Part shown: positions 1 through 32,025 of the stretch, piece by piece
Position numbering within the stretch: position 1 is the first letter of the stretch
Layout: every line of letters begins with the position of its first letter
Made by a program: the position numbers and the translations under genes
From: Flavobacteriales bacterium
GTDB lineage: Bacteria > Bacteroidota > Bacteroidia > Flavobacteriales_F > PHOS-HE28
Length of the DNA stretch: 33,350 nt
NCBI GenBank assembly: GCA_017987115.1
Contig: JAGNUG010000034.1
Coordinates: 1 to 33,350, forward strand
Direction: 5' to 3'
The notes under the pieces: generated by a model
The model's database searches: none
What the model was told of the DNA's origin: nothing
What the model saw: the letters and a program-made list of their open reading frames with translations, nothing else

Positions 1-770
1 CAATTGTCCGTGCCAACAGGTGTGGCATAGGTCACAACGGCACTGCACATTCCAGGATCGTTGTTCACGATGATGTTGCTCGGGCAGGTGAGTTCCGGAA
101 CAATGTTGTCCTCAACGGTTATATCGAAGCTGCACGTACTGATATTGCCATAAGTATCGGTAGCAGTATAGGTTACAGAGGTGGTACCAACACTGAAAGC
201 GCTACCCGGAGCATGTGATGAAGAGATCGATCCGCCGATACAGTTGTCTGAGAATGTTGGAGCAGTCCAAGTTGCAATTCCGTTGCACGCCGCTCCAGCG
301 GCAATTATTTGATCACCGGGGCATCCGGAGATCACTGGATCCTGGTTATCCAATACGGTAATGGTCATAGAGCACGTCTTCGCTCCGTTGCCATCATCGG
401 CACTAAAGATCACGGTTGTTACACCAATGGGATAGGTGCCGGAAGCATCGGCGGTATTGTTGAAGTCATTGGTTAGAGTGTAGGAAGCGGAAGAGCTCGA
501 AACGGTTGGTCCTGGCACGGTAACGGATACGGAACAGTTACCGCTGGAAGTAAAACCACTGATGTTTGCAGGGCAGGTAACGGAAAAGACCTCCTCACGA
601 TCAGATGTAGGTTTGTCGTTCACAACGAAATACCTGGTATTGCCGGTCCGAGCACTAGTACCGGTTGAAATACCGAGTGATATCAAGATGCACAGAGACG
701 AACGCAGCAGCCTGGAACTTGTTCCCGACAGGCACAGGAAAGACCCATTGATATGAATGCCGTTCAACAT
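1..770 (-). CDS. HYR-domain secreted/surface protein, N-terminal part (runs off left edge)
   Basis: An open frame runs on the minus strand from an ATG at 770 to the window edge (256 complete codons, no stop). The first 40 residues contain a hydrophobic stretch (LLRSSLCILISLGISTGTSA) that reads as a signal peptide, after an unusually long n-region of about 20 residues. From about residue 65 there are at least three HYR/Ig-like beta-sandwich repeats, recognisable by the recurring pattern TCP.NI, then GT/P..V.Y.A.D..GN..TC...ITV.DN..P. Such repeats are known in Bacteroidota extracellular adhesins and T9SS cargo. The C-terminus is outside the window, so a sorting domain cannot be confirmed. It lies downstream of, and on the same strand as, the giant repeat protein, about 430 bp away. 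The HYR assignment is secure; the biological role is inferred only in general terms (cell surface, adhesion). Confidence 0.85.
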   Translation of the reverse strand, partial: MLNGIHINGSFLCLSGTSSRLLRSSLCILISLGISTGTSARTGNTRYFVVNDKPTSDREEVFSVTCPANISGFTSSGNCSVSVTVPGPTVSSSSASYTLTNDFNNTADASGTYPIGVTTVIFSADDGNGAKTCSMTITVLDNQDPVISGCPGDQIIAAGAACNGIATWTAPTFSDNCIGGSISSSHAPGSAFSVGTTSVTYTATDTYGNISTCSFDITVEDNIVPELTCPSNIIVNNDPGMCSAVVTYATPVGTDN

Positions 771-1200
771 GGATATATACTTCAACCTAGAGAGTTGTCG
801 TTCTGCATCAAGCGCTTATAGGCCATTTATACGCAGGTACTTCCAAAGGGTTCACTTGTCGAAACAATCCGGATCTTGAACGGATGGATCGACCTGTCGG
901 TCATGAAAGGTGTTTGATACTCGAAAATGCACGAACGGGATGTCAAAAGGACATGGAACTGATGGCTTGCCTGTAGCTCGTGACAACCGTAGGTCGGTTT
1001 CGACCTAATGCTGACTCCCTGAAATACAGGCTAATAGATACGACCACGCTCATTCCAAGCGAATGATGACTTACGTTTCCATGAATAAATGGATACCACC
1101 ATCATTTGAGCTAAATGGACCCAAGTCTCTCCTTAAGTATTGGCGTTGCAACGGTCTCCTGTTGCCGAAGCCTCCGAAATATCAGACGGTAGTGTCGGAC
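771..1200. other. Intergenic region, no gene seen
   Basis: No convincing coding frame is present between the giant repeat gene and the HYR gene; short plus-strand frames here lack coding character. It should hold the end of the upstream transcript and the promoter of the HYR gene. The only structure noted is the short hairpin at 990-1007. Confidence 0.6.
990..1007. other. Perfect inverted repeat (7-bp stem, 4-nt loop)
   Basis: TAGGTCG, loop GTTT, then CGACCTA. It lies about 200 bp past the stop of the giant repeat gene on the minus strand. There is no T-run on either side, so it is not a typical intrinsic terminator. It could be a 3'-UTR hairpin or chance. Confidence 0.35.
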
Positions 1201-4200
1201 CTAGTGTTTGATCCACATCTGCGTGTGCATCACTCTGCCACGATCCGAGATCACGACCCGATAGGCGCCGGTACAAAGGCCGCTCGCATCCAAATGGAAT
1301 AGGGGAGGGTAGCCATATTCCGAGATGATCACCCGACCCATGGCATCGTGTAGCTCAACAGTCAATAAGTCCTCCGTAATGTTGTTGATCACGATGTTGA
1401 TCATTCCATCTGACGGGTTAGGATAAACCAGCACATTGTCGTTCTCGGTCGATTCCGATCGATATATGGCGACTACTTTGGATCGATGCAGCGTCCCATC
1501 GCTGTCCATCTGTAGTAAGCGGTAATATGAAATTCCTGTGATTGGAGCTCTATCGACTAATGTATAGTGCTGCACAATCAAAGAGGTTCCTGCTCCTGGA
1601 GTGTTCAGAATTGGCTCGAAATCTTCTGCATCGACGGAACGCTCGATAATGAAAAGCTCATTATTCACTTCGCTGGCTGTTGACCAGATCAGATCAACCA
1701 CTTTGCCATTTGGCACGGCGTTGAACGAGATCAACTCGACCGGTAACGGATTCATGCCCAAAGCAGAGGATAACGTGAATGGCCCGAGTTCATTCAGCGT
1801 GCCATTGCTTGTTATTGTTCCAGCGCTCACATTACCTGTAGTCCCACCGTTGCCATGATGCTGCCACTGACTTGGTCCGGAAGACCATCTTGCGACCTGA
1901 AGGTCTATCAGTAATGCTACCAAGCAGTTCGGAGTTGCGGTGGAGCTCCAGCTCAACGTAACTTGAACTAGGCCTGAGCCCGCGATCCTGTCGAGGTCCC
2001 AATATTCGCATAGATCCAGATTCTGGATGGTCGGTACGCGCTGTGAATGGGGATAGAATGCATTTGAGTTCAATGGATGATATTCTGCTGAAATAGTGGA
2101 GAGCGATGTAGGAGCGGAGATCGCTATCGGTCGATAGAATGAACCATCGCCAACTGGGAAAACAAATGCCATGGCACCGGCCTTTTGTATTGGACCCACA
2201 ACGTGGCTGATATCGCTCATATTTGTTGCAGTAGCGGTAGTTTGCAAGATCAGTATCGAAGTATTGGTTACGATGCCCTGGACGAATTCGACGTTGGCGT
2301 TAACCGAATGGATCCCGCTCGTGAAATTCACACCGTTCGCATTGTCGATAACAACGTTATGGAAAGCTTCTGATGAGGAGCATGACACGTTATTGGCCAC
2401 CTCGCACCCCATGAATCGCACTGTACTTGTATTGGCGTTCAAAGAGCCACCATTGGACCAATTACCCGTTAAATCAAGTTGTAGACCTGCCGCTAGGGTC
2501 AAGGAACGACCTGTACCGATCGAAATACTATGGATGGCGGTGTTATGGATGATCACTGGATCCATAGTGCCTGAATTGATCACAGCATCACGTTTTGTGT
2601 TCGGAACGCCGTTGGTCCAATTGTCAGGATCATGCCAAGCAGCGGTAATACCGAGCCATGCTGTCGTGCTGTTGCCCGTGATCCGAATAGCATTGGATGC
2701 GTATGCGCTGTTGGCACATCCGCTGATGTCAGGCGTTAGTAAGCACGTTACCTCATCGCCGGTAGTTATCAATGCATTGACATAGGTGGGGGAGTTGGTC
2801 CCCGCATTGGAGCCATTCAGCTGCCATTGATAGGTTGGCGAGCTGCCTGCGTTACTTGCTGAGGCAGTGAAAACGGTACCACCAAGATTGCCAATTCGAA
2901 CATTAGAAAGTGTAGCTCCCATTCCTGCGGTAGAACCATCTACGAACAGTGGATAGGACGGAGCAGCCGCACTTGTATAAAGTATTGCTCCGTTCTGTAG
3001 ATATTGCACCACGCCGTTATTGATCGCTATCCTCAGTTCATCGCCGGTTGAATAGGGACTTGTTGCTAATGCGGTACCTCCATTCTCGTATACCTTAAGC
3101 ACGCCATTCGATTGTAGAACGAATGCATAAGAAATTGAGGTATAGTCCCCGTCAATATCAGCATTGCTTAACCCGATGGCACGCGATCTATTCGTTTCCT
3201 GGACGGTTGTTTCCATGAACCCATTGTCCGGTACTGATTGCCAAGAGAACGCATTTCCGTTCCAGACCAGATTGTCATTGGTCTTTACAAGACTATTGCC
3301 CGCTATATGATGATGTAACGATGAGGCCGAAGCTCGCCAGGTAACATCCGTTAGCGTATTGGCACACAAGTCCAGGTCATCGTCAACGGAGATATACGTT
3401 TCGTTCCATGACCCAGGATGGGTACTCATGATCAAATACTCGGTCGAATTTGTAATGACCCCACCACAACCGGCAAGACCTGTTGTTAGCTGGCATGCCA
3501 CAATATCACCGACGACCAGAGACGAATTGGAATAGGTTGGGGTCCCTGAGCCTACATTGGCACCATTCAGTTTCCATTGGAAGGCTGGAGTTGAAGCGTT
3601 CACGGATGGGCCGGTTTCCACATCGAAAGTTCCTTGCGTTCTGTTTCCTACTCGGACATTGTCGATCGAGCCACCTACAGTGTGTATCGAAGCGTCAACA
3701 TACAAAGGCAAGGCAGGTACTGTAGTACTGGTATACAGAGGAGAGCCGTTCTTGTAGTATCGGACAATGCCGTTCTCCACAGCTAAGCGAAGAAGGTCGC
3801 CTGCAGAATGTGTGGAAGTATGGACCAAGGTTCCACTTTCGAATAGTCTTAGATCGCCTGAGGCCTGGATCACGAACGCGTGATCAATGGATAAATGCGA
3901 AGCATCGGTATCTGCGCTGCTTAAACCGATGGATCGGTCGGTTGCAGATTCCTGGAGCGTGGTTTCCATGAATCCATCATCATGGATCGCATCCCAGGAG
4001 AAACCATTGCTGTTCCAGGCATCATAACCGTTCACTTTAGTGAGCCGGTTCCCTGTGATCTCCGTGAATGCATCAACTGAGGATCTGCGCCAACTTGCGT
4101 TGGTGACTGCTAAGAGACAAGCCGGTGATGCAGCTGGGATCGTAATTCGGAATTGATCGGGGCTGAACGGTACATGGGCTGATATCTCGATAGGATTCGA

Positions 4201-6642
4201 TGACAGCGTGTTCGATGAACAGCCATTCTGATCAAGGGTCATGTGGCAGGTAAGTACATCGCCATCTGCGAAACTGCTGTTCGTATAAGTTGGACTATTG
4301 ATGCCAACATCGATCCCATTCAGTTTCCATTGGAAGCTCGGCGAAGCGCCAAGGTCGCTAGCATCAGCAAGAAAAGCACCTTGTGAGACATTGGCGATCT
4401 TCACATTGGACATGGTGCCTGGGATCCGTTTCAACGACATATCCACGAACAACGGTAATGAAGGTGTTGATCCACTGAAGTAGATCGGCTGACCATTCTG
4501 GTAGTACACGACAACTCCATTCTGCACTTCAATGCGCAGAACATCTCCGTTCACGTATGGTATGGATGTGGTGCGGGGTACACCGCTTTCGAAGACCAGC
4601 AGACCACCTACCTCGTTCAAGTAGAAGGCGTATTGAATGGATGAATAGTGGGAGTTGGCATCCACGGAACTCAGACCGAACATGCGTGCATTCACCGGAC
4701 CTGTAATAGTTGTTTCCATATAGCCGTTATCGGCCACGGATTGTAATGAGAATGCGTTGCCATCCCATTGGCCCTCGTTTCCGAGCTTGGTAGCATTATT
4801 GCCGGTTACAACTATACCACCATCCAATGAGTTCATCTTCCAACGCGCATCTGCTGTTGCATAGTAGCAGCCGGTTGTCGAAGGAGTGTTGGCAATATTC
4901 AGATCCACCTGTGGCGAAGGGTCATGTGCAATAATGTTGATCGTATTGGATGTGAACGAAGTACCCGAGCACGAGGCAACATTCGGCGTCAGGTCACAGG
5001 AAATGACATCGCCATTCATTAACCCACCATTCGTGTACGTAGGACTGTTCGTCCCGACAGGGTTTCCATTCAATTTCCATTGGTAGCTAGGGGAGACCCC
5101 GGCATTGTTCGCTACGGCGGTGAATACACCTTGCTCCATATTGCCCACTTTTACGTTTGCAACAGTTGCGCCGGCATTTCGGGTCGAAACATCCACATAC
5201 ATCGGTAACGTCGGTGTCACAACGGTAACGTGCAGTAACACACCGTTCTTCAAATACTTTACACCTCCATCATCCACAGCGATACGAAGTACATCACCCG
5301 TTGCATAGGAGAACATTGTCGGAACGGCGGATCCACTTTCGAAAATACGGAGGACCGATCCGGTGTCGAGATAGAATGCGTAGTCGATCGTCTGGTAATC
5401 AGCATCGGTATCCACAGCGCTCAGACCCACCATTCGGAATCTATTGGTTTCCTGTGCCGTGGTTTCCATGAAGCCGTTGTTACCAACAGCCTGCCAAGAA
5501 AAAGCGTTGCCATCCCAAGCATTCGTGCTACTTATGTTCGTAAGCGAATTACCGTAGATCGCATGTTGCTGGCCTGAAGTTGGTTGTCTCCAAACCACAT
5601 CGACCAGTGATGCGATACAAGCTGTTGCAGCCGTGGTCCCTTGAATATGGAACGTATTCGATAGTGTTGGGTCCCTATTCTGAAGAACGATCGAATTGCT
5701 TGGTATCAATGTGGAGGGCACACAACCGTCCACATCAGTGGTCATTGCGCAAGTAAGCATGCTTCCTGCGGTGATGGACCCGTTCGAGTAGCTGGTGCTC
5801 GATGAACCTACATTTCCTCCGTTCAATTTCCATTGATAACTGGGCGAAGTACCACCACCGGAGGTATTTACCACAAAGTTGCCCTCGGTAGGGTTCGCGA
5901 CTTTAACATTGGCCACAGTTGCACCAATATCATAAGTGGATACATCTACATATAACGGTAAAACAGGTGTTTGTGAACTGGTGTAAAGGACGATACCGTT
6001 CTGATAGTAACGCACTTTGCCATGCTCAATGGCAATACGAAGCACATCTCCAGTGGAATAGGTCGTGAATACAAGATTGGAACCGCCGTTCTCCACCACC
6101 CTTAATACACCAGCGGTGTTCAGAACGAAGCCGAATTGGATCGTGGCATAGCTAGCATTCGCATCAACGGAGCTGATCCCTACCGCTCGAATTGTAGTGG
6201 TCTCTTGTACTGTGGTCTCCATATAGCCATTGTCTCCAATGGACTGCCATGAGAATGCATTCCCATCCCAGAGCCCCGAACTGGACGCTTTTGTGACGTT
6301 ATTGCCACTGACAGTATTCACGGCGCTCAGGCTCGTCGCTCGCCAAACGACGTCAGCGATCGCAATCGAACACCCTGAGTTGGAATGCACCGCGGCGATA
6401 TGATTTTCTGTGCATTGAGCTTGCACAACGCAAGTGGACATGCATAGGGCGGAAATGGCCGCAAATAGCGAGCGTACGCTCCAATTGGATCGGTCCGTTT
6501 GATCAGGAATGCTTGCAAAGCCAGAGTTCCTACGGAAGAAGGGGCCAGGTACTGAACTGGTCGTTAAATGCTGAACGGTGGAAATTGCACGATCGATGAC
6601 AGCCAGGAATCTAAGGAAGAATTGAGTCAGACCCTTAGACAT
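1201..6642 (-). CDS. Giant T9SS-secreted protein with five lectin-like/Ig-like tandem units
   Basis: 1813 residues from the ATG at 6642; the frame is also open from an upstream ATG at 6795. A hydrophobic signal segment (SVRSLFAAISALCMSTCVVQA) sits at residues 55-75, so even from 6642 the n-region is long. Residues about 95-1317 hold five tandem units of about 250 residues. Each begins with a beta-rich domain (WR..., WDGNAFSWQ, GYMETT, GDVLRIA, YYQNG, LPLYVD) of a type seen in bacterial surface proteins, followed by an Ig-like domain (PSYQWKLNG, TYTN). Next come a W-rich segment near residue 1327 (AWHDPDNWTNGVPN), a fibronectin-like module (LPVELISF, STASEVNNELFIIERS), and a C-terminal sorting domain of about 80 residues (VLVYPNPSDG, DAMGRVI, GAYRVVI). 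It follows the SiaC gene on the same strand with no clear terminator between. Probably an exported surface adhesin; the ligand is unknown. Confidence 0.88.
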   Translation of the reverse strand: MSKGLTQFFLRFLAVIDRAISTVQHLTTSSVPGPFFRRNSGFASIPDQTDRSNWSVRSLFAAISALCMSTCVVQAQCTENHIAAVHSNSGCSIAIADVVWRATSLSAVNTVSGNNVTKASSSGLWDGNAFSWQSIGDNGYMETTVQETTTIRAVGISSVDANASYATIQFGFVLNTAGVLRVVENGGSNLVFTTYSTGDVLRIAIEHGKVRYYQNGIVLYTSSQTPVLPLYVDVSTYDIGATVANVKVANPTEGNFVVNTSGGGTSPSYQWKLNGGNVGSSSTSYSNGSITAGSMLTCAMTTDVDGCVPSTLIPSNSIVLQNRDPTLSNTFHIQGTTAATACIASLVDVVWRQPTSGQQHAIYGNSLTNISSTNAWDGNAFSWQAVGNNGFMETTAQETNRFRMVGLSAVDTDADYQTIDYAFYLDTGSVLRIFESGSAVPTMFSYATGDVLRIAVDDGGVKYLKNGVLLHVTVVTPTLPMYVDVSTRNAGATVANVKVGNMEQGVFTAVANNAGVSPSYQWKLNGNPVGTNSPTYTNGGLMNGDVISCDLTPNVASCSGTSFTSNTINIIAHDPSPQVDLNIANTPSTTGCYYATADARWKMNSLDGGIVVTGNNATKLGNEGQWDGNAFSLQSVADNGYMETTITGPVNARMFGLSSVDANSHYSSIQYAFYLNEVGGLLVFESGVPRTTSIPYVNGDVLRIEVQNGVVVYYQNGQPIYFSGSTPSLPLFVDMSLKRIPGTMSNVKIANVSQGAFLADASDLGASPSFQWKLNGIDVGINSPTYTNSSFADGDVLTCHMTLDQNGCSSNTLSSNPIEISAHVPFSPDQFRITIPAASPACLLAVTNASWRRSSVDAFTEITGNRLTKVNGYDAWNSNGFSWDAIHDDGFMETTLQESATDRSIGLSSADTDASHLSIDHAFVIQASGDLRLFESGTLVHTSTHSAGDLLRLAVENGIVRYYKNGSPLYTSTTVPALPLYVDASIHTVGGSIDNVRVGNRTQGTFDVETGPSVNASTPAFQWKLNGANVGSGTPTYSNSSLVVGDIVACQLTTGLAGCGGVITNSTEYLIMSTHPGSWNETYISVDDDLDLCANTLTDVTWRASASSLHHHIAGNSLVKTNDNLVWNGNAFSWQSVPDNGFMETTVQETNRSRAIGLSNADIDGDYTSISYAFVLQSNGVLKVYENGGTALATSPYSTGDELRIAINNGVVQYLQNGAILYTSAAAPSYPLFVDGSTAGMGATLSNVRIGNLGGTVFTASASNAGSSPTYQWQLNGSNAGTNSPTYVNALITTGDEVTCLLTPDISGCANSAYASNAIRITGNSTTAWLGITAAWHDPDNWTNGVPNTKRDAVINSGTMDPVIIHNTAIHSISIGTGRSLTLAAGLQLDLTGNWSNGGSLNANTSTVRFMGCEVANNVSCSSSEAFHNVVIDNANGVNFTSGIHSVNANVEFVQGIVTNTSILILQTTATATNMSDISHVVGPIQKAGAMAFVFPVGDGSFYRPIAISAPTSLSTISAEYHPLNSNAFYPHSQRVPTIQNLDLCEYWDLDRIAGSGLVQVTLSWSSTATPNCLVALLIDLQVARWSSGPSQWQHHGNGGTTGNVSAGTITSNGTLNELGPFTLSSALGMNPLPVELISFNAVPNGKVVDLIWSTASEVNNELFIIERSVDAEDFEPILNTPGAGTSLIVQHYTLVDRAPITGISYYRLLQMDSDGTLHRSKVVAIYRSESTENDNVLVYPNPSDGMINIVINNITEDLLTVELHDAMGRVIISEYGYPPLFHLDASGLCTGAYRVVISDRGRVMHTQMWIKH
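2685..6360 (-). repeat. Five tandem ~750-bp coding repeats inside the giant surface protein
   Basis: The unit-start motif (WR followed by a small polar stretch, then WDGNAFSWQ) recurs with starts near 6350, 5600, 4850, 4100 and 3345. The spacing is therefore almost exactly 750 bp (250 codons). The units are diverged in nucleotide sequence but share the same domain order. The regular period suggests successive in-frame duplication of a lectin-like plus Ig-like pair. Confidence 0.85.
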
Positions 6643-6804
6643 CACTTCGGATACCAGAAGTGATCTTGGCGCACCTGTGCAATGTGAGGAGTCGAAATAC
6701 AGATCTTCCTTTTTTCTGCGAGTATGTCCGTGCCACTTCATTATGGGAACACATGGGCCAATCCTCAAATGGCCTATCGCCATAAGCAACCACATGAAAT
6801 TGGA

Positions 6805-7218
6805 TCAAGCGACTTTCTTATCACTGCTAGTGTCGATTGGTCCTTTACGTAGATTTAGTTTGATACCCACCATTTCAGTGAAGGTTTCAGCAGCATCGGT
6901 CATGAAATCATCATCATCCTCGATGTACCAATCCACCTCGAATTTTTTACCCTTTTCTGATTCTTTCTTGACCTCCATCAGCATCATGTAGAGTGCCTTT
7001 AGAGACGATGAATTGAAATAGGGTAGGCAGAATTCAAAAACTGACCCAGTGTTGATAAGCGTAATATTCTCGCGCAACCATTCCAGCACGGGAGTATAGA
7101 ATTTTCCGGCATTCTCAGGAATGGAGTGTCCAACTACACGGTAAACGCCGTTTTCGGTATCTAAGAAAATTTCCGGTGTACTGCGTGTTGCGGGTATATG
7201 GAATTGATTCATCGTCAA
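6805..7218 (-). CDS. siaC-like: SiaC family regulatory phosphoprotein (DUF1987)
   Basis: 137 residues, full length for the family. Conserved features visible are ATRSTPEIFLD near the N-terminus, the GHSIPENAGKFYTPVLEWL segment at about residues 30-48, the PYFNSSSLKAL loop at 66-76, and the acidic WYIEDDDDFM stretch near 96-105. In Pseudomonas aeruginosa, SiaC is phosphorylated by SiaB, dephosphorylated by SiaA, and in its unphosphorylated form activates the diguanylate cyclase SiaD. No SiaD is encoded here. Position 70, aligned with the threonine of the orphan paralogue, is serine in this copy. Its ATG overlaps the SiaB stop codon (ATGA), so it is probably translationally coupled as the last signalling gene of the operon. 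Family assignment is confident; the target is unknown. Confidence 0.9.
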   Translation of the reverse strand: MTMNQFHIPATRSTPEIFLDTENGVYRVVGHSIPENAGKFYTPVLEWLRENITLINTGSVFEFCLPYFNSSSLKALYMMLMEVKKESEKGKKFEVDWYIEDDDDFMTDAAETFTEMVGIKLNLRKGPIDTSSDKKVA

Positions 7219-7757
7219 GCGCGTTTTTGATCAATGGAGAGATCCGTACTTACCTTACTGGTGCACATGAATTCGTTGGGATCGATGGGATGTACCTCGG
7301 CACTTATGTTCTTTCCGACCTTCCTGGCGATCTGAAGCATGCCAAGACCAGCACCTCCTTTGTCTCCGAAGCCTTCATTCTTAAGCTGGGCCATAAATGC
7401 TTTACTGATCTCTTCCGGCGTCATTCGGTCAATGGAGTTTACTGCTTCCAGCAACCGCTTTGCATCGGTTTCCGATGCTTTGTTCTTTATGGTCACGACC
7501 AGGTGGGTATCTTCTATATGCCATCTGAAATCAACGTCGTTGCTTGAATTGTATCGTTGAGCGTTGTCGAGCAGTTCCAGAGCGATCCCGATCAATTTTT
7601 TAAGGTCGTTACGTTTACCAAGGTTGCAGAGCGCGATACATTTGAGCAGGTCGAACAGCTGTACGCGCACATCACTCGTAAGCCGCCCCTTGTATTCAAG
7701 GAGGCTTGACGCTGTCTGGGTGCTATCCAGGTTATCGTTTATGATATCCATGATCAT
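7215..7757 (-). CDS. siaB-like: SiaB family protein kinase (GHKL ATPase fold, DUF6272)
   Basis: 180 residues with no membrane segment. An N-box (ELLDNAQRY, residues 61-69, catalytic-type Asn65) and a glycine-rich G-box (GDKGGAGLGMLQIAR, 131-145) mark a histidine-kinase-like ATPase fold. There is no dimerisation/phosphoacceptor histidine domain, as expected for SiaB kinases, which phosphorylate SiaC on Ser/Thr. The start overlaps the phosphatase stop codon (ATGA) and the stop overlaps the SiaC start (ATGA), placing it between its predicted antagonist and its predicted substrate. An alternative start at 7751 (ATG two codons in) cannot be excluded. Function is inferred from family and context; the cognate substrate is most likely the adjacent SiaC. 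Confidence 0.9.
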   Translation of the reverse strand: MIMDIINDNLDSTQTASSLLEYKGRLTSDVRVQLFDLLKCIALCNLGKRNDLKKLIGIALELLDNAQRYNSSNDVDFRWHIEDTHLVVTIKNKASETDAKRLLEAVNSIDRMTPEEISKAFMAQLKNEGFGDKGGAGLGMLQIARKVGKNISAEVHPIDPNEFMCTSKVSTDLSIDQKRA

Positions 7758-10300
7758 GCTGCGTAACGCAGTCCAAGGAGTAATACGTCATCGGTCTGTG
7801 CAGAGTTTCCTTTCCAGTCCAAAAATTCACGTTCCGCGCGTTGTTTGACCTGCAAAAGGTCCAAATGGGCGGTACTTGAAAGTAACTTGACTAATCTCTG
7901 CATGGAGAACTTCTTTTGGCCTTCAGTACCACCGAATTGATGGATGATCCCATCGCTGAAAAGGAACATAGCGTCACCGCTGACCAATTGCATGTCGTGG
8001 TCTTTATAGCCTGTGGTACGTTTAAAATGACTGTCTCCTAATGGATATACGTCTCCCTTGAATCGGATCACCTCTCCGTTACGGATCACGATCAATGGAA
8101 GCTGTGCTCCTGAGAACGAGAGTTTACCGGTATCCATGTCCAAACTGCAGAGCCCAATGTCAAATCCATCATTGTACAAAGCCTGATGACCTCGGGCATC
8201 CATCGTTTTCTTTACATGTTCGTGTAACAGGTCCATCAGTACACCGCAGGATGCATTCGGGTTCTGTGCCAATAGTTCACTTAAACCGTAATACGCAATG
8301 AATGTCATCATGGCGGCAGGAACTCCATGTCCGGTGCAATCGATGGCAGCAACGAATAACTTGTTTCCGATCCGTTTAAGAAAAGGCAGATCACCACTAA
8401 CGGTTTCCAAGGGTTTGTATAGTAAGAAGCTGTCCGGTATCGTATTTCGCAGATCGGTCTCAGTGGGCAGAATGGCAGATTGGATCGTTTGTGCATAGTC
8501 CAAACTGCTTTGAATATTCTGACTTTTCTCAGCCAGTTCATCATTATTGCTTTGGATCAGCGTGTTCTGTTCATGAATTGTCCTGTTCTTCTTGCGCGTA
8601 ATGTTCCAAGCTCGCGCCATATACATGGCCAATAGTGCAGCACATATCGCGGCAGCTATGCTGAAGCGCTTTACCGAGGCGTCATGTTTCTGTTGGATCA
8701 TCAACGCATCACTTTTAGCTTCTACTAGCTCATTGCGTTGCAATAGCACGTCCATGGCACTTTCCTGGGCCTTATGCTCAAGTTCCATTTTACTGACGTT
8801 CAGCGCTTGCAGCATCCGACTGTTGTTCAACGATTCGATCTCGCGCTGTTGTTCAACATCCTGAAGCGCTGCTTGTGTTAATTGTAGGTCGTTGTACGCC
8901 TTTTCCCGCAGGATCATTTCCTCCCTTCTTCCAGCTTCTTCAAGTTGCTTTTCGTAAACGAGAAGGGCCATTTGCTTTTCACGGTTCTCCGCGTCAAGCG
9001 CGAGCTGCTTTAATCGTCCTTCTTTGCGTTGTTCGCGATTCAGCAGGTCTACCTGCTCCCGCTCGATCCGTTGTAGTCGCAGCAATTGAGCATCTCGGTC
9101 GGTTTTGGCCTGTGTGGTTTTAGCGGTCAGGATCTGTTCCAGGTCACGTGCCTTTTTATTGAAGCTGCGGGCCTCGTTCGGGAGGTCGCGTTGTTCGAAA
9201 ATGTTGGCCAAAAGGTCACATGCCACACTTTGTTCCTTCAGGTCCTTATCCTCTTCTGCAAAGGATAGGGCCTCCAAAGCAGTATTCTGTGCACCGACCA
9301 TATCGCCTCTTAGTAGTTGAATGGCAGCCTTAGTGCGTAACAGGCGAGGCATAAGTCTCGTGAAGTTCTTTGCTCGCGCTGCAACATCTGCTTCCTCGAT
9401 CAAGCGAACTGCACTTTCCATATTGCCTCCGGTAGCTTGGGCATGGGCCGCATTCACTTGCACGCTCAAGCGCAGATAAGGGACATCTTCCACGAGTATC
9501 AGGCCTTTCCCGAATGCGATCATGGCCTCCTCGTTCCTACCCAGGCGTTGATTCAATTCGCCCATATTGTTGGCACATATACCGGACTGTAGCGTTCTGT
9601 CCAAAGCCGCGGCAAGTTTCATGACTTCGACTTCCGTGTTCAGCGCAGCTTGGTTCTGTTTCTCCTTTGCTTGTGCAGTGGCAAGTATTGAAAGCAGGTC
9701 CAACATCAGTTCACGATCTGCTAGCGCATTCACTTCTTCTTTTTGACCTAGACAATATGTGATGAGGAGATCGGGTTTCATGACCATTGCACGAGCTCTG
9801 ATATCAGCACGTATGTATCGCGAACGATCCATTTTGCCTGCGCCGGTCGTATTTTTTGCTTCCTCCAAGTGCTCCAATGCTTTCTGCGGATGACCGGATT
9901 CCAAATAGAGTTCTGCCAATTGAAGCATGGCATTTGTGCGGATACTACTGTGATATGTACCATTGATCATAGTCGCGCGGATGCTGGCTCCGATCGCATT
10001 GTCCAGATCTCCGTTTGCTTTGTGTGCTTCAGCTAGTTCGATCAACGCTTGGGCCAGTGTGCTTTCCAGCCCGTTACGTTCCGCTTCCGCAGAACCAAGG
10101 ATCGCGAATTCCACGGCTTCTCGATAATGTCCGCGACCTCTTTCAAATATTGAAAGGTCCAGCAATCGTTGCGCTCGGTCCTGACCCTGCTTGGACTTTT
10201 GCATATCAGAGAGCATGGACGCATAATCCTGTGCATGACCGTAGTGCACCGATATCGTGCATATGGTCGCAAATAGAAATTTTGCTAGTGCGCTCTTCAT
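7754..10300 (-). CDS. siaA-like: TPR/coiled-coil sensor with C-terminal SpoIIE-type PP2C phosphatase (SiaA-like)
   Basis: 848 residues. A signal peptide is at 1-23 (cut after GHA). TPR-like helices occupy about 40-390, a long charged coiled coil about 385-545, one membrane segment 547-565 (FSIAAAICAALLAMYMARAW), then a short coiled linker and a PP2C/SpoIIE phosphatase domain at about 605-848. Metal-ligand aspartates are present: D637 (SGD), D654 (DCTGHG), D783 (FSDG) and D837/D838 (TDD). The predicted topology is a large periplasmic TPR sensor with a cytoplasmic phosphatase. By analogy with SiaA it should dephosphorylate SiaC. It differs from Pseudomonas SiaA, whose sensor region is not TPR-based. 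Its ATG overlaps the TonB-receptor stop (ATGA). The residues after SGD (LPFLK) depart from the aromatic pattern common in Bacteroidota relatives, but no catalytic residue is missing. Confidence 0.9.
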   Translation of the reverse strand: MKSALAKFLFATICTISVHYGHAQDYASMLSDMQKSKQGQDRAQRLLDLSIFERGRGHYREAVEFAILGSAEAERNGLESTLAQALIELAEAHKANGDLDNAIGASIRATMINGTYHSSIRTNAMLQLAELYLESGHPQKALEHLEEAKNTTGAGKMDRSRYIRADIRARAMVMKPDLLITYCLGQKEEVNALADRELMLDLLSILATAQAKEKQNQAALNTEVEVMKLAAALDRTLQSGICANNMGELNQRLGRNEEAMIAFGKGLILVEDVPYLRLSVQVNAAHAQATGGNMESAVRLIEEADVAARAKNFTRLMPRLLRTKAAIQLLRGDMVGAQNTALEALSFAEEDKDLKEQSVACDLLANIFEQRDLPNEARSFNKKARDLEQILTAKTTQAKTDRDAQLLRLQRIEREQVDLLNREQRKEGRLKQLALDAENREKQMALLVYEKQLEEAGRREEMILREKAYNDLQLTQAALQDVEQQREIESLNNSRMLQALNVSKMELEHKAQESAMDVLLQRNELVEAKSDALMIQQKHDASVKRFSIAAAICAALLAMYMARAWNITRKKNRTIHEQNTLIQSNNDELAEKSQNIQSSLDYAQTIQSAILPTETDLRNTIPDSFLLYKPLETVSGDLPFLKRIGNKLFVAAIDCTGHGVPAAMMTFIAYYGLSELLAQNPNASCGVLMDLLHEHVKKTMDARGHQALYNDGFDIGLCSLDMDTGKLSFSGAQLPLIVIRNGEVIRFKGDVYPLGDSHFKRTTGYKDHDMQLVSGDAMFLFSDGIIHQFGGTEGQKKFSMQRLVKLLSSTAHLDLLQVKQRAEREFLDWKGNSAQTDDVLLLGLRYAA

Positions 10301-12318
10301 TGAATGAACTTGTAGGTAATGCCGAAGGTGTATTCCCTACCGTTAAGAGCGAATGGTGTGGTGTCGTTCCGTACCGGACCAATAAGGGTCCGTCGTGTAT
10401 CGGTAATGTTCCTACAGCCAATATCCACAGCCAATCGCATTGAAGCCTTGGGTCGCCAGGTAAGTCCGGCATTCACTGTCAACTCAGCTGGCCAAGCGAT
10501 CAATGAGAGCTGATCGTTTATTTGACCAGTAGCTCCGTAAGACCATACTTCCCCTCTGTAATTCGCATTGGCCCTTAACGTGAATGATGGACTAGCGTCG
10601 ACTGCGATCACCAAAGAACCACGTTGTTCGGGAAGGGCCGTAATACCGTTGGATGAACTATCGGGTAGCTCTACCTCAGACGGGGCCGATGCGTTCATTG
10701 GCCGGTTGAAACCATAGCTTGCTAACACAGTAGTACGTTTGGTCTCCCACGAAAATCGGAGGTCGAGGCCAAACCTACCTGCAATACTCCCATTCAAGTA
10801 GCTACTTCCAAGGCTATCTCTGTATGAATGAAGGATCGGATCAGTGAACCGGGTTTGATAGCCATTTGCGGTAAGCGTTGTGGACTTACCGATCATATAT
10901 CCCAATTCGCCTTCAGTAGTCGTAACATATTCAAGGCTCACCGGGCCATTTTCAGACCAATTGTTCAGGTTCATAACAGTAGGTGCCCTGAAGCCTCGGC
11001 CCCAAAGTGCCTTTACGTGTAAATTGCCAATAACCTTGGTATAGGCAAATCGCGGTGCGAAGAAGTCGCCAACCAGATCATTGGCCTCGAAGCGACATCC
11101 TGCCGTTAGCATCCCTGGTTTTCCGAATACAGCTAGCTCAGCGAAAACGGCACCATCATTCATCCTAATGGCACGTGCACCGTTCATTCGGAAGGTCGAA
11201 TGTTCGTTGCGTTGGTAGAAGGTTGATAGCAGGGTATAGCCGGAAATACCAATTCGGCCAGTAAACCATTCAGCCGGTTTGAAACCGATCGACCCGGTTG
11301 CCGAGGTACGTTGGTTGTTGGTGTTTCTGTTGAGCCGATCCGTTTCACCGGTATTCAAATAATACCAAGGCAATTGATTGGTGTGGTTCACGTTCCACGA
11401 CAGATCCATACGCTGGCTCAGTTGCTTCTTGTACTCAATACCGAATATGACATCGCGCTTTTGAATACTGTATGCTGCATCACTGACCCTGAATGTTTCT
11501 TCAAGGTAGGTCATGGACGCCTTGAAATTCTTCCAGCGGTAATTGAACTGGAAGGTGCTGGCCTGTACGGCTGTGCTATCGGCAAGATCCAATCGCGTAC
11601 TATCTGGCATAAGTCGAAGTGCGTTTGATCGCTTACCACGCGTATAGCTGGTCATGTAGCTGATCTCCCGATCACGATCAAGTCGGTGTGAGCCGCTGAC
11701 AGTAGTAGTTGTTCGCGTTAGGTCATTGTTGCTGAAACCGGTCTGCACGTTGGCCCGCGCGCCTGTTCCTTGATCTGCACTGCGCGTTACAATATTTATG
11801 ACACCCAGCGATGCATAACCTCCGTGTATCATGGAACCTGGACTTATGACCACTTCAATTCGATCTACATTGCTGATCGGGATACGGTCACCAATTGCAT
11901 ACGTGCCGAGATCATTTTCATTCAGCTGACTGCCGTTCAACATGAAGAGGCATTTGCCTTCTTCGGCCCAATTGCCGTGAATACCGATCCCGATCACATC
12001 ATCCGCGTCACGCCCGAAGGAAATTCCCGGGATCAATTGCAATGCCTCATAAAGCGTACGAGCACCTGCGGCTTGGATCTGGCGCGATGTAATGATCGTA
12101 ACATTGGCCGGTGATTCACGCACTGGACGGCTTTCCTGATCGGCAATGCTTGTTAAAAGAACAGCTTTTCCACCGTCGCGCGAGATCTCCAGAAGCTGAT
12201 CAGGGTCGTTTAGCAGCACGCGTTCATCAACCACCGATTGAGCGCAGACATGCGTACTAAGCGATGCCGTGAGCAGAATGGAAACCCAGAAGAGCGTCCG
12301 ATGTTTGTATGATCTCAT
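10297..12318 (-). CDS. TonB-dependent outer-membrane receptor
   Basis: 673 residues from the ATG at 12318, chosen because it directly precedes a signal peptide (RSYKHRTLFWVSILLTASLS...CAQ); the frame is open to 12414. A plug domain spans about residues 55-185 (SPANVTIITSRQIQAAG, LYEALQLIPGISF, NVDRIEVVISPGS, GVINIVTRSA). It is followed by a beta-barrel rich in alternating aromatic strands, ending in an aromatic C-terminal strand (REYTFGITYKFIQ). There is no N-terminal carboxypeptidase-like domain, so it is not a SusC-type protein. The substrate cannot be told from sequence. It is the first gene of the minus-strand operon and its stop overlaps the start of the phosphatase gene, which suggests that receptor and SiaABC module are made together. 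Confidence 0.9.
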   Translation of the reverse strand: MRSYKHRTLFWVSILLTASLSTHVCAQSVVDERVLLNDPDQLLEISRDGGKAVLLTSIADQESRPVRESPANVTIITSRQIQAAGARTLYEALQLIPGISFGRDADDVIGIGIHGNWAEEGKCLFMLNGSQLNENDLGTYAIGDRIPISNVDRIEVVISPGSMIHGGYASLGVINIVTRSADQGTGARANVQTGFSNNDLTRTTTTVSGSHRLDRDREISYMTSYTRGKRSNALRLMPDSTRLDLADSTAVQASTFQFNYRWKNFKASMTYLEETFRVSDAAYSIQKRDVIFGIEYKKQLSQRMDLSWNVNHTNQLPWYYLNTGETDRLNRNTNNQRTSATGSIGFKPAEWFTGRIGISGYTLLSTFYQRNEHSTFRMNGARAIRMNDGAVFAELAVFGKPGMLTAGCRFEANDLVGDFFAPRFAYTKVIGNLHVKALWGRGFRAPTVMNLNNWSENGPVSLEYVTTTEGELGYMIGKSTTLTANGYQTRFTDPILHSYRDSLGSSYLNGSIAGRFGLDLRFSWETKRTTVLASYGFNRPMNASAPSEVELPDSSSNGITALPEQRGSLVIAVDASPSFTLRANANYRGEVWSYGATGQINDQLSLIAWPAELTVNAGLTWRPKASMRLAVDIGCRNITDTRRTLIGPVRNDTTPFALNGREYTFGITYKFIQ

Positions 12319-12535: not shown

Positions 12536-13858
12536 ATGAAGGCCCGCACACTTAAAACCACGAAGGTCAACGTCATTACCATGGGTTGCTCCAAGAACAC
12601 GTTCGATAGCGAAGTGCTCATGGCCCAATTGAAGGCGAACAACATCAGTGTGGATCATGAGAGCAACAGTGGGGAGCACAACGTGGTAGTGATCAATACA
12701 TGCGGGTTCATTGAGAATGCCAAGCAGGAAAGCATTGATACCATACTCAACTATGCGCGTGCCAAGGATGAAGGGTTAGTCGAAAAGGTCTACGTTACGG
12801 GATGCCTGAGTCAGCGGTATGCCCCGGAATTGAAAGCCGAGATCCCGCAGATCGATGCGTGGTTCGGAACACGGGATCTTCCGCGTTTGCTCAAAACCTT
12901 GAAAGCGGATTACAAGCACGAGCTAGTAGGGGAGCGATTGCTCACAACACCAGCGCATTTCGCCTACTTCAAGATCAGTGAAGGTTGTGATCGTAAATGT
13001 TCATTCTGTGCCATACCCTTGATGCGTGGCAAGCATATCAGCACGCCCATTGAGCAATTGGTGACGAATGCCAAGGGTTTGGCAGCGAATGGCGTGAAGG
13101 AACTTATCCTCATCGCACAGGACCTTACCTATTACGGACTGGATATCTACAAAAAGCGCAACCTCAGTGAGCTCTTGGCCCAGCTAAGCGATGTGGAAGG
13201 AATTGATTGGATCCGCTTGCACTATGCATTCCCCAGCGGTTTCCCGATGGATATCCTGGATATCATGCAAGAGCGCAAGAACATCTGCAACTACCTGGAT
13301 ATGCCGTTGCAACATGGCAGCACGAACATGCTCACCCGTATGCGAAGAGGCATTACCCAAGAAAAGACCGAGGCATTGGTTGATACCATTCGTGAAAAGG
13401 TGCCCGGCATCGCTATTCGTACCACATTGATCGCTGGCTTCCCCGGTGAGACCGAAGCAGATCACCAGGACAACCTGCAATGGATAGAACGCATGCGGTT
13501 CGATCGCTTAGGAGCTTTCACCTACAGCCACGAAGAAGACACACACGCACATACCATGGAAGATGATGTGCCCGAGGAACTGAAACACCAGCGCGCCAAC
13601 GAGATCATGGAATTGCAAGGCGGCATCAGTTTGGAGCTGAACCAAAAGCGGGTAGGGAACATCCAGACCGTGCTCGTGGACAAAGCCGAAGGCGACTATT
13701 GGATATCCCGCTCAGAATTCGATAGCCCTGAAGTGGACAATGAAGTGCTCATCGCGCGCAAGAATTCAGAAGGTCCAGTACACTTGCGCGTTGGCGATTT
13801 TGCAGAAGTACTGATCACGGAAGCGAATGAGCATGACCTGCGGGCGGAGGTGGTGTGA
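12536..13858 (+). CDS. rimO: Ribosomal protein S12 methylthiotransferase RimO
   Basis: 440 residues, usual for RimO. The N-terminal UPF0004 domain carries its three iron-sulfur cysteines (C18 in MGCSKN, C56 in NTCGF, C90 in TGCLSQ). The radical-SAM core has the CxxxCxxC motif at C151, C155 and C158 (CDRKCSFC), followed by MRGKHIS. A TRAM domain occupies the C-terminus (about 375-440). RimO adds a methylthio group to an aspartate of ribosomal protein S12. It is distinguished from MiaB by MGCSKN, the RLHYAFPSGFP segment and the DMPLQHGS context. It is transcribed divergently from the receptor operon across a 217-bp gap. There is no obvious Shine-Dalgarno before the ATG, as is common in this phylum. 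Confidence 0.96.
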   Translation: MKARTLKTTKVNVITMGCSKNTFDSEVLMAQLKANNISVDHESNSGEHNVVVINTCGFIENAKQESIDTILNYARAKDEGLVEKVYVTGCLSQRYAPELKAEIPQIDAWFGTRDLPRLLKTLKADYKHELVGERLLTTPAHFAYFKISEGCDRKCSFCAIPLMRGKHISTPIEQLVTNAKGLAANGVKELILIAQDLTYYGLDIYKKRNLSELLAQLSDVEGIDWIRLHYAFPSGFPMDILDIMQERKNICNYLDMPLQHGSTNMLTRMRRGITQEKTEALVDTIREKVPGIAIRTTLIAGFPGETEADHQDNLQWIERMRFDRLGAFTYSHEEDTHAHTMEDDVPEELKHQRANEIMELQGGISLELNQKRVGNIQTVLVDKAEGDYWISRSEFDSPEVDNEVLIARKNSEGPVHLRVGDFAEVLITEANEHDLRAEVV

Positions 13859-31632: not shown

Positions 31633-32025
31633 TCAGAATAGCTCTTCAACCTCGATGAACTTGAACTTCATGTTGAAGAAGCTCTGGTAGTCCTTACCTG
31701 TTTCGGCCATTTCTTCATCGCCGCTTTCAAAATGCCAGTTCACCTGGATCTTGTTTCCTGTCTCACCAGCGGTATTGAGACGTTTGAAGATATTATACAG
31801 ATGCCTCGAAGAACTGGTGTCCAAATAATCCAGATGCATGTTCACGGTCGTTTCTTCGGAGGGCTTTTCCAAATACTCATCCAACCAGTTATAGACCTGT
31901 GCATAGAATTGCTCAGAGTTATGGGGTAAAGACCGTCCGATGAACTCCATGATCCCACTGTCCACATCTATATCAATAAGCGGAGATGTATCCGTTCGTT
32001 CAACATGGTAGCGTTTTGTGATCAT
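31633..32025 (-). CDS. siaC-like: Orphan SiaC family regulatory phosphoprotein (DUF1987)
   Basis: 130 residues. It aligns over its whole length with the operon SiaC: TDTSPLIDIDVDSGIMEFIG, GRSLPHNSEQFYAQVYNWLDEY, LDYLDTSSSRHLYNIF and WHFESGDEEMAETGKDY. Position 70 is threonine (DTSS), where the operon copy has serine (NSSS). No SiaA or SiaB gene adjoins it; neighbours are the PIN-PhoH gene (convergent) and two small secreted protein genes on the same strand. It might therefore be served by the SiaA/SiaB pair at 7215-10300 or by another pair elsewhere. The start ATG at 32025 gives the usual family length. The role is inferred as a phosphorylation-switched binding protein with an unknown partner. 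Confidence 0.88.
   Translation of the reverse strand: MITKRYHVERTDTSPLIDIDVDSGIMEFIGRSLPHNSEQFYAQVYNWLDEYLEKPSEETTVNMHLDYLDTSSSRHLYNIFKRLNTAGETGNKIQVNWHFESGDEEMAETGKDYQSFFNMKFKFIEVEELF

Follow-up and report, generated by a model that had tools for sequence, protein, structure and literature searches.

A TonB-dependent receptor gene joined to a SiaABC-type partner switch in a Flavobacteriales genus without GGDEF domains

SiaC-type switch proteins are widespread, and the sole target that we found for them in the literature is a diguanylate cyclase. What might such a switch control in bacteria that have no diguanylate cyclase of this kind, and what signal might it receive? This question is raised by a 33,350-nt stretch of a Flavobacteriales genome (GenBank assembly GCA_017987115.1, contig JAGNUG010000034.1, positions 1 to 33,350; hereafter the window), which encodes on its reverse strand a TonB-dependent receptor, counterparts of the Pseudomonas phosphatase SiaA, kinase SiaB and phosphoprotein SiaC, and a giant cargo protein of the type IX secretion system (T9SS). 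The neighbours of the switch name a candidate input for SiaC, the outer-membrane receptor, and a candidate output, a surface adhesin. We found that the genes for receptor, membrane phosphatase, kinase and switch protein form a block that is inherited as a unit in one genus, often along with the gene for a giant surface adhesin. This suggests that an outside signal could govern stickiness by a route not yet described, one that does without the usual messenger, cyclic di-GMP (c-di-GMP).

The receptor and the three switch proteins

The block is read on the reverse strand from the receptor gene (673 aa, 10297..12318) through siaA (848 aa, 7754..10300) and siaB (a predicted GHKL-type Ser/Thr kinase of 180 aa, 7215..7757) to siaC (6805..7212). 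Domain profiles bore out the original prediction, made from the sequence alone, for the order, strand and identities of these genes and of the T9SS gene behind them. The prediction also held that three ATGA stop/start overlaps join the block, and two of them stand: receptor/SiaA (10300-10297) and SiaA/SiaB (7757-7754, with a second in-frame SiaB ATG 6 nt further on). The SiaB/SiaC junction reads TGA-CG-ATG, with the SiaC ATG (7212) 2 nt past the SiaB stop, and this gap rules out the third; SiaB and SiaC could overlap solely with a TTG start for SiaC.

Judged by its sequence, SiaA is a membrane PP2C phosphatase with conserved Asp ligands. It matched the SpoIIE profile of Pfam (72.7 bits) and the SiaA-PP2C structure 6k4e (phmmer E 1.7e-27), and Foldseek aligned its PP2C fold with this Pseudomonas phosphatase at a TM-score of 0.84 by target length. 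Residues D637, D654, G657, D783, G784 and D837/D838 are invariant in all nine orthologs aligned, and the metal-binding residues named for Pseudomonas SiaA (PMC7647112) have invariant counterparts in all nine. The protein runs from a signal peptide through a tetratricopeptide repeat (TPR) solenoid (residues ~40-370), a coiled coil and one transmembrane segment (~546-564) to the PP2C domain (611-848). The signal peptide and the single membrane segment would together place the TPR part in the periplasm. An AlphaFold2 model from the nine orthologs gave the solenoid a predicted local distance difference test score of ~90, with the coiled coil poorly predicted at 477-548, and the nearest structures to the solenoid in Foldseek were peptide-binding TPRs such as LGN. 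Alignment and model support the claim that a periplasmic TPR/coiled-coil sensor replaces the Pseudomonas one. Such a TPR sensor is not special to this locus, as it also occurs in SiaA of other Flavobacteriales. The N-terminal sensor differs from that of Pseudomonas SiaA, and the NCBIfam equivalog NF038263 scored 151.6 against a cut-off of 700.

SiaB matched DUF6272 at 62 bits, above the cut-off, and part of the SiaB chain of 6kko; the SiaB subfamily model NF038262 gave 64.5 bits against a cut-off of 85. SiaC matched PF09345 (103.5 bits, cut-off 24.5) as well as the Pseudomonas SiaC entries 6kko/6k4f in the PDB, and reached 73.8 against 150 for the NCBIfam equivalog NF038265. The residue aligned with Pseudomonas Thr68 is Ser in the window; of 17 orthologs, 15 also have Ser and two have Thr. 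Ser would be chemically compatible with the role of phosphate acceptor. SiaD had been predicted to be absent, and a GGDEF search came up empty both for this genome and across the 45 genomes sampled from the genus, with the same search positive in 8 of 14 control genomes. The SiaC output here is not a GGDEF-type diguanylate cyclase, and since the unit is conserved in a genus without any GGDEF domain, SiaC must have another target.

The receptor consists of a plug (51 bits) and a barrel (58 bits) by Pfam. The extension before the plug is short, at ~65 aa including the signal peptide and the TonB-box region, and carries ahead of the TonB-box region an LL..D...LL motif that is largely conserved in an alignment of 11 orthologs. 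No STN domain on the receptor was matched in Pfam, and no FecR anti-sigma or extracytoplasmic function (ECF) sigma factor was found among the block genes, in the window or in relatives.

Conservation of the block

In a genus sample of 45 genomes (G labels denote genomes, L labels loci), the receptor family occurred in 12, once in each and always beside rimO. The TPR sensor half of SiaA was present in 10 genomes, all of them among these 12 (Fisher p 2e-8, shared descent uncorrected). Receptor, SiaA, SiaB and SiaC are contiguous and in this order in ten genomes (the window genome, G008, G013, G040, G033, G030, G017, G019, G007 and G012), and parts of the block at contig ends in G042 and G031, where the contig ends within SiaA, are consistent with the same order. 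Whether the receptor keeps its place next to SiaABC in related genomes had been posed as the test of the original prediction, and adjacency was found in every receptor genome readable across the junction. The ATGA overlap between receptor and SiaA recurs in 10 of 11 readable loci, G031 being the exception with a 2-nt gap; SiaA/SiaB and SiaB/SiaC spacing is looser. SiaA of G012 is present but diverged (29% identity). In G040, an in-frame TAA (L069 12621-12631) divides SiaA into two open reading frames, through either assembly error or decay.

Mean pairwise identity across nine genomes was 41% for the receptor, 46% for SiaA, 63% for SiaB and 50% for SiaC, with 86% for rimO. The pairwise identities of receptor and SiaA covary (Spearman 0.77; 0.76 once the effect of rimO is taken out), which fits either selection acting on both proteins together or transfer of the block as a whole, and does not prove physical contact.

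At ≥47% identity, the SiaB subfamily of the block is restricted to the genus, and the best matches elsewhere in the class sample were at 26-33%. Outside the genus, we compared 26 loci from the class, each with at most 10 kb of flank (some shortened by contig ends), and 16 SiaC loci from a species-wide scan, and the receptor-SiaA arrangement was found in none of these 42 SiaB/SiaC loci. A TonB receptor lies 3.5 kb off on the opposite strand in L011. The 26 class loci, none of which had either, led us to reject a general tie of SiaABC to SprF or TonB receptors in Bacteroidota. Among the loci outside the genus, SprF near SiaABC was seen only in L025 (near SiaA) and in a marine Flavobacteriales group (L018-L022), where SiaB-SiaC-OmpA/PD40-TPR-SiaA adjoins convergent genes for OmpA/PD40 and SprF, at least one of which could be reached in every locus; L019 has a SprB-repeat type B adhesin near SiaABC. 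Closeness of SiaABC to type B adhesins therefore arose in at least a second lineage and is not general. In another Bacteroidota group (L010, L011, L013, L014, L015 and L017), tandem SiaC-SiaC genes stand behind SiaB, with OmpA-like proteins before them. Our literature search turned up no paper that treats a TonB receptor together with SiaABC, DUF1987 in bacteria other than Pseudomonas, or SpoIIE phosphatases in connection with T9SS adhesins.

Surface proteins behind SiaC and the rimO-ftsY interval

What is conserved behind SiaC is an adhesin slot, usually filled by an HYR adhesin; the window's own adhesin is not conserved. A giant T9SS or HYR protein stands behind SiaC in 7 receptor genomes including the window, always read in the direction of SiaC. 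One giant family, composed of a beta-helix and HYR domains, follows SiaC directly on the same strand in G008, G033, G030, G017 and G019; at the threshold used, it occurred in 5 of the 45 genomes and in none of the other 40 (Fisher p 6e-4, shared descent uncorrected), and the HYR protein of G013 shares its HYR part. The giant is complete only in G033, where it ends in a CHU_C type B tail. There, rimO is followed by receptor-SiaA-SiaB-SiaC-giant-SprF-OmpA on one strand, and then by SulP and ftsY. The last protein of that block combines TPR, PD40, carboxypeptidase-regulatory-like and OmpA domains, which is the PorE layout. PorP-like proteins have been shown to hold type B cargo, and cargo with PorE-like partners has been proposed to be non-mobile (PMC9143113); we therefore lean towards a fixed rather than a gliding adhesin.

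In the window, the gene behind SiaC encodes a T9SS type A cargo protein of ~1,760 aa (1201..6477, reverse strand) with a signal peptide, five ~250-aa repeats and a C-terminal type A sorting domain (Por_Secre_tail). Each repeat joins a lectin/SPRY-like jelly roll to an Ig-like part (AlphaFold2 predicted TM-score 0.75). Foldseek matched the model to the folds of SPRY, galectin and CBM66 domains, and the jelly roll is not covered by any Pfam family. The signal peptide begins at GTG 6477, which we therefore took as the more likely start in place of ATG 6642. The span first given to the system, 6642-12318, thus contains receptor to SiaC, with the T9SS gene (1201 to ~6480) almost wholly outside it. 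The further claim that the giant gene follows SiaC on the same strand with no clear terminator held up in our searches. The gap of ~327 nt holds a 9-bp hairpin without a T run (GATCACTTC-TGGTATCC-GAAGTGATG, about 6640..6668, reverse strand), folds overall no more stably than shuffles (z 0.48), and contains neither an intrinsic terminator nor a TAnnTTTG promoter by our searches. The type A protein was rejected as the conserved adhesin, since no relative of its repeats lies behind SiaC elsewhere. A candidate for the adhesin found behind SiaC in relatives is instead the HYR-repeat surface protein at 3..785 (reverse strand; PF02494, 72.9 bits, two domains), of which the contig end leaves only the start portion. 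Conservation of the adhesin next to SiaABC therefore holds for a giant in 7 genomes and fails for the window's type A protein itself. This genome also encodes 14 PorP/SprF genes.

The block lies between ftsY and rimO, the latter (12536..13858, forward strand) being a fixed flank in all relatives that is itself outside the system. In genomes without the block, ftsY adjoins rimO with zero or one gene, such as a SulP-type transporter, between them; this empty site was read in G001, G002, G003, G014, G022, G024, G032, G034, G037, G038 and G043. A lone membrane SpoIIE phosphatase stands there in G010 and G023 (L088 2151-3590, L089 3654-5105), related to the one behind SiaC in G040, G007 and G031 and appearing as if the remaining block had been lost. 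The interval holds SiaB-SiaC only in G018 and G039. A LuxR-type response regulator and a Reg_prop histidine kinase directly precede SiaB-SiaC in G041, G028, G006 and G005, and the same pair lies directly upstream of receptor-SiaABC in G008, G040 and G007. The loci with this pair are L066, L069 and L074, where its two genes overlap by 4 bases, and L079, L080, L081 and L083. On a rimO tree, these states are scattered: the six states call for at least 13 changes, compared with 18 when the labels are shuffled, and the interval has therefore been gained, lost and remodelled in steps. In that tree, the G031 row is unreliable, and G004 was scored empty though its contig stops a short way upstream of rimO; that the block is missing from G004 rests on whole-genome searches.

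Such a history raises the possibility that rimO-ftsY is an insertion hot spot at which receptor-SiaABC and the T9SS giants arrived independently, so that the adhesin would not be a target of the switch. The contents of the interval do vary from nothing through a lone phosphatase, SiaBC, and SiaBC with a histidine kinase to the full block, the giants are of more than one type, and the genus is rich in T9SS cargo. However, no giant occurred without SiaABC among the intervals read, the HYR giant family is missing from the other 40 genomes, and all 7 giants share the direction of SiaC. We consider independent arrival unlikely, if still a serious contender.

A possible route from receptor to adhesin

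We favour the reading that the block is a receptor-linked SiaABC partner switch controlling a surface-adhesin programme without c-di-GMP, and we believe it about as much as we doubt it. The outer-membrane receptor would bind or transport a ligand, and the signal would be relayed across the periplasm towards SiaA, most simply through the receptor's periplasmic N-terminal tail or plug touching the TPR solenoid. Such contact would alter PP2C activity, and SiaA would dephosphorylate SiaC at Ser68, the Thr68 equivalent, with SiaB rephosphorylating it. The form of SiaC that is active and binds its partner in Pseudomonas is the unphosphorylated one (PMC8457831, PMC12834913). By analogy, the unphosphorylated form would be the active one here and may bind some partner that is not a diguanylate cyclase. 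Most likely, the switch would act on whether the large T9SS surface protein, whose gene follows siaC on the same strand, is made or displayed. In its strongest form, namely that a TonB receptor directly contacts the TPR part of a transmembrane PP2C phosphatase and that a SiaC switch controls a T9SS adhesin in bacteria without a diguanylate cyclase, the proposal is tentative, and our doubt exceeds our belief.

Several observations weigh against this reading. The known FecA-type signalling route is not applicable, because the receptor lacks an STN domain. SiaB and SiaC are found without receptor or SiaA in 7 genomes of the genus, at least 4 of them with the histidine kinase and regulator. In the other five receptor genomes no giant was seen: four have ftsY (three of them past a second phosphatase), and one is broken by a contig end. 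The gene next to SiaC in the window is unrelated to the HYR family and stands behind the hairpin-bearing gap. Finally, genomes with the block may share it by descent, and the genome counts are therefore not independent.

The receptor could also be an ordinary nutrient importer that sends no signal, with SiaABC regulating it or merely co-expressed. A plug and barrel without a signalling domain would suit an importer, as would a nearest NCBIfam resemblance to B12 and siderophore receptors (far below cut-offs) and the fact that operons of uptake and regulation are common. Yet it is paired with a membrane phosphatase that has a large periplasmic domain and whose gene overlaps that of the receptor in nearly all readable loci, the receptor family is never away from SiaA in the genus, and the block contains no inner-membrane transporter or binding protein; a mere importer therefore seems to us unlikely. 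A transcriptional output of SiaC through the Reg_prop histidine kinase and LuxR-type regulator, with the adhesin as one regulated gene among others, is improbable: the pair does precede receptor-SiaABC in three genomes and SiaBC in four, but it is absent from the site in the window, G013, G033, G030, G017 and G019 and is therefore not a general SiaC partner unless located elsewhere.

The receptor-linked SiaABC that we favour is a variant on the known SiaABC switch, whose signalling here we infer. Like SiaABCD of Pseudomonas aeruginosa (PMC7647112, PMC8457831), it combines a PP2C membrane phosphatase, a predicted GHKL kinase and SiaC in one operon, with conserved PP2C ligands and a probable link to surface attachment. 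Unlike that system, it belongs to a genus without SiaD or GGDEF domains, its sensor is a predicted periplasmic TPR solenoid with a signal peptide, a receptor gene overlaps siaA upstream, Ser stands where Pseudomonas has its Thr acceptor, and SiaA, SiaB and SiaC all fall below the NCBIfam equivalog cut-offs. FecA-FecR-FecI transducers likewise tie an outer-membrane TonB receptor genetically to a trans-envelope regulator, whereas the block has no STN domain and no FecR or ECF sigma factor, and the partner is a Ser/Thr phosphatase. If the receptor does signal to the phosphatase, this would be an additional route for TonB receptors to control cell behaviour, and a second kind of TonB-receptor signalling beside FecA-FecR-FecI.

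On the output side, the CHU_C giant of G033, with SprF and the TPR-PD40-carboxypeptidase-regulatory-like-OmpA protein behind SiaC, resembles units of type B cargo, PorP/SprF and PorE-like anchor (SprB-SprF, PG1035-PorP-PorE; PMC9143113). It differs from them in coming immediately after a SiaABC switch. The window departs further: its first cargo protein is lectin-like and belongs to type A, and its HYR protein is truncated where the contig stops. SiaB-SiaC loci with TPR or other SpoIIE phosphatases and without SiaD are common in the class, and the 42 outside the genus differ in having no receptor in this arrangement.

SiaC proteins are not limited to this block. The window encodes a second one (31633-32025, reverse strand; PF09345, 125 bits) near phoH and without SiaB, with orthologs in G002 and G037 at 69-72% identity, and the whole genome has four SiaC and five SpoIIE proteins.

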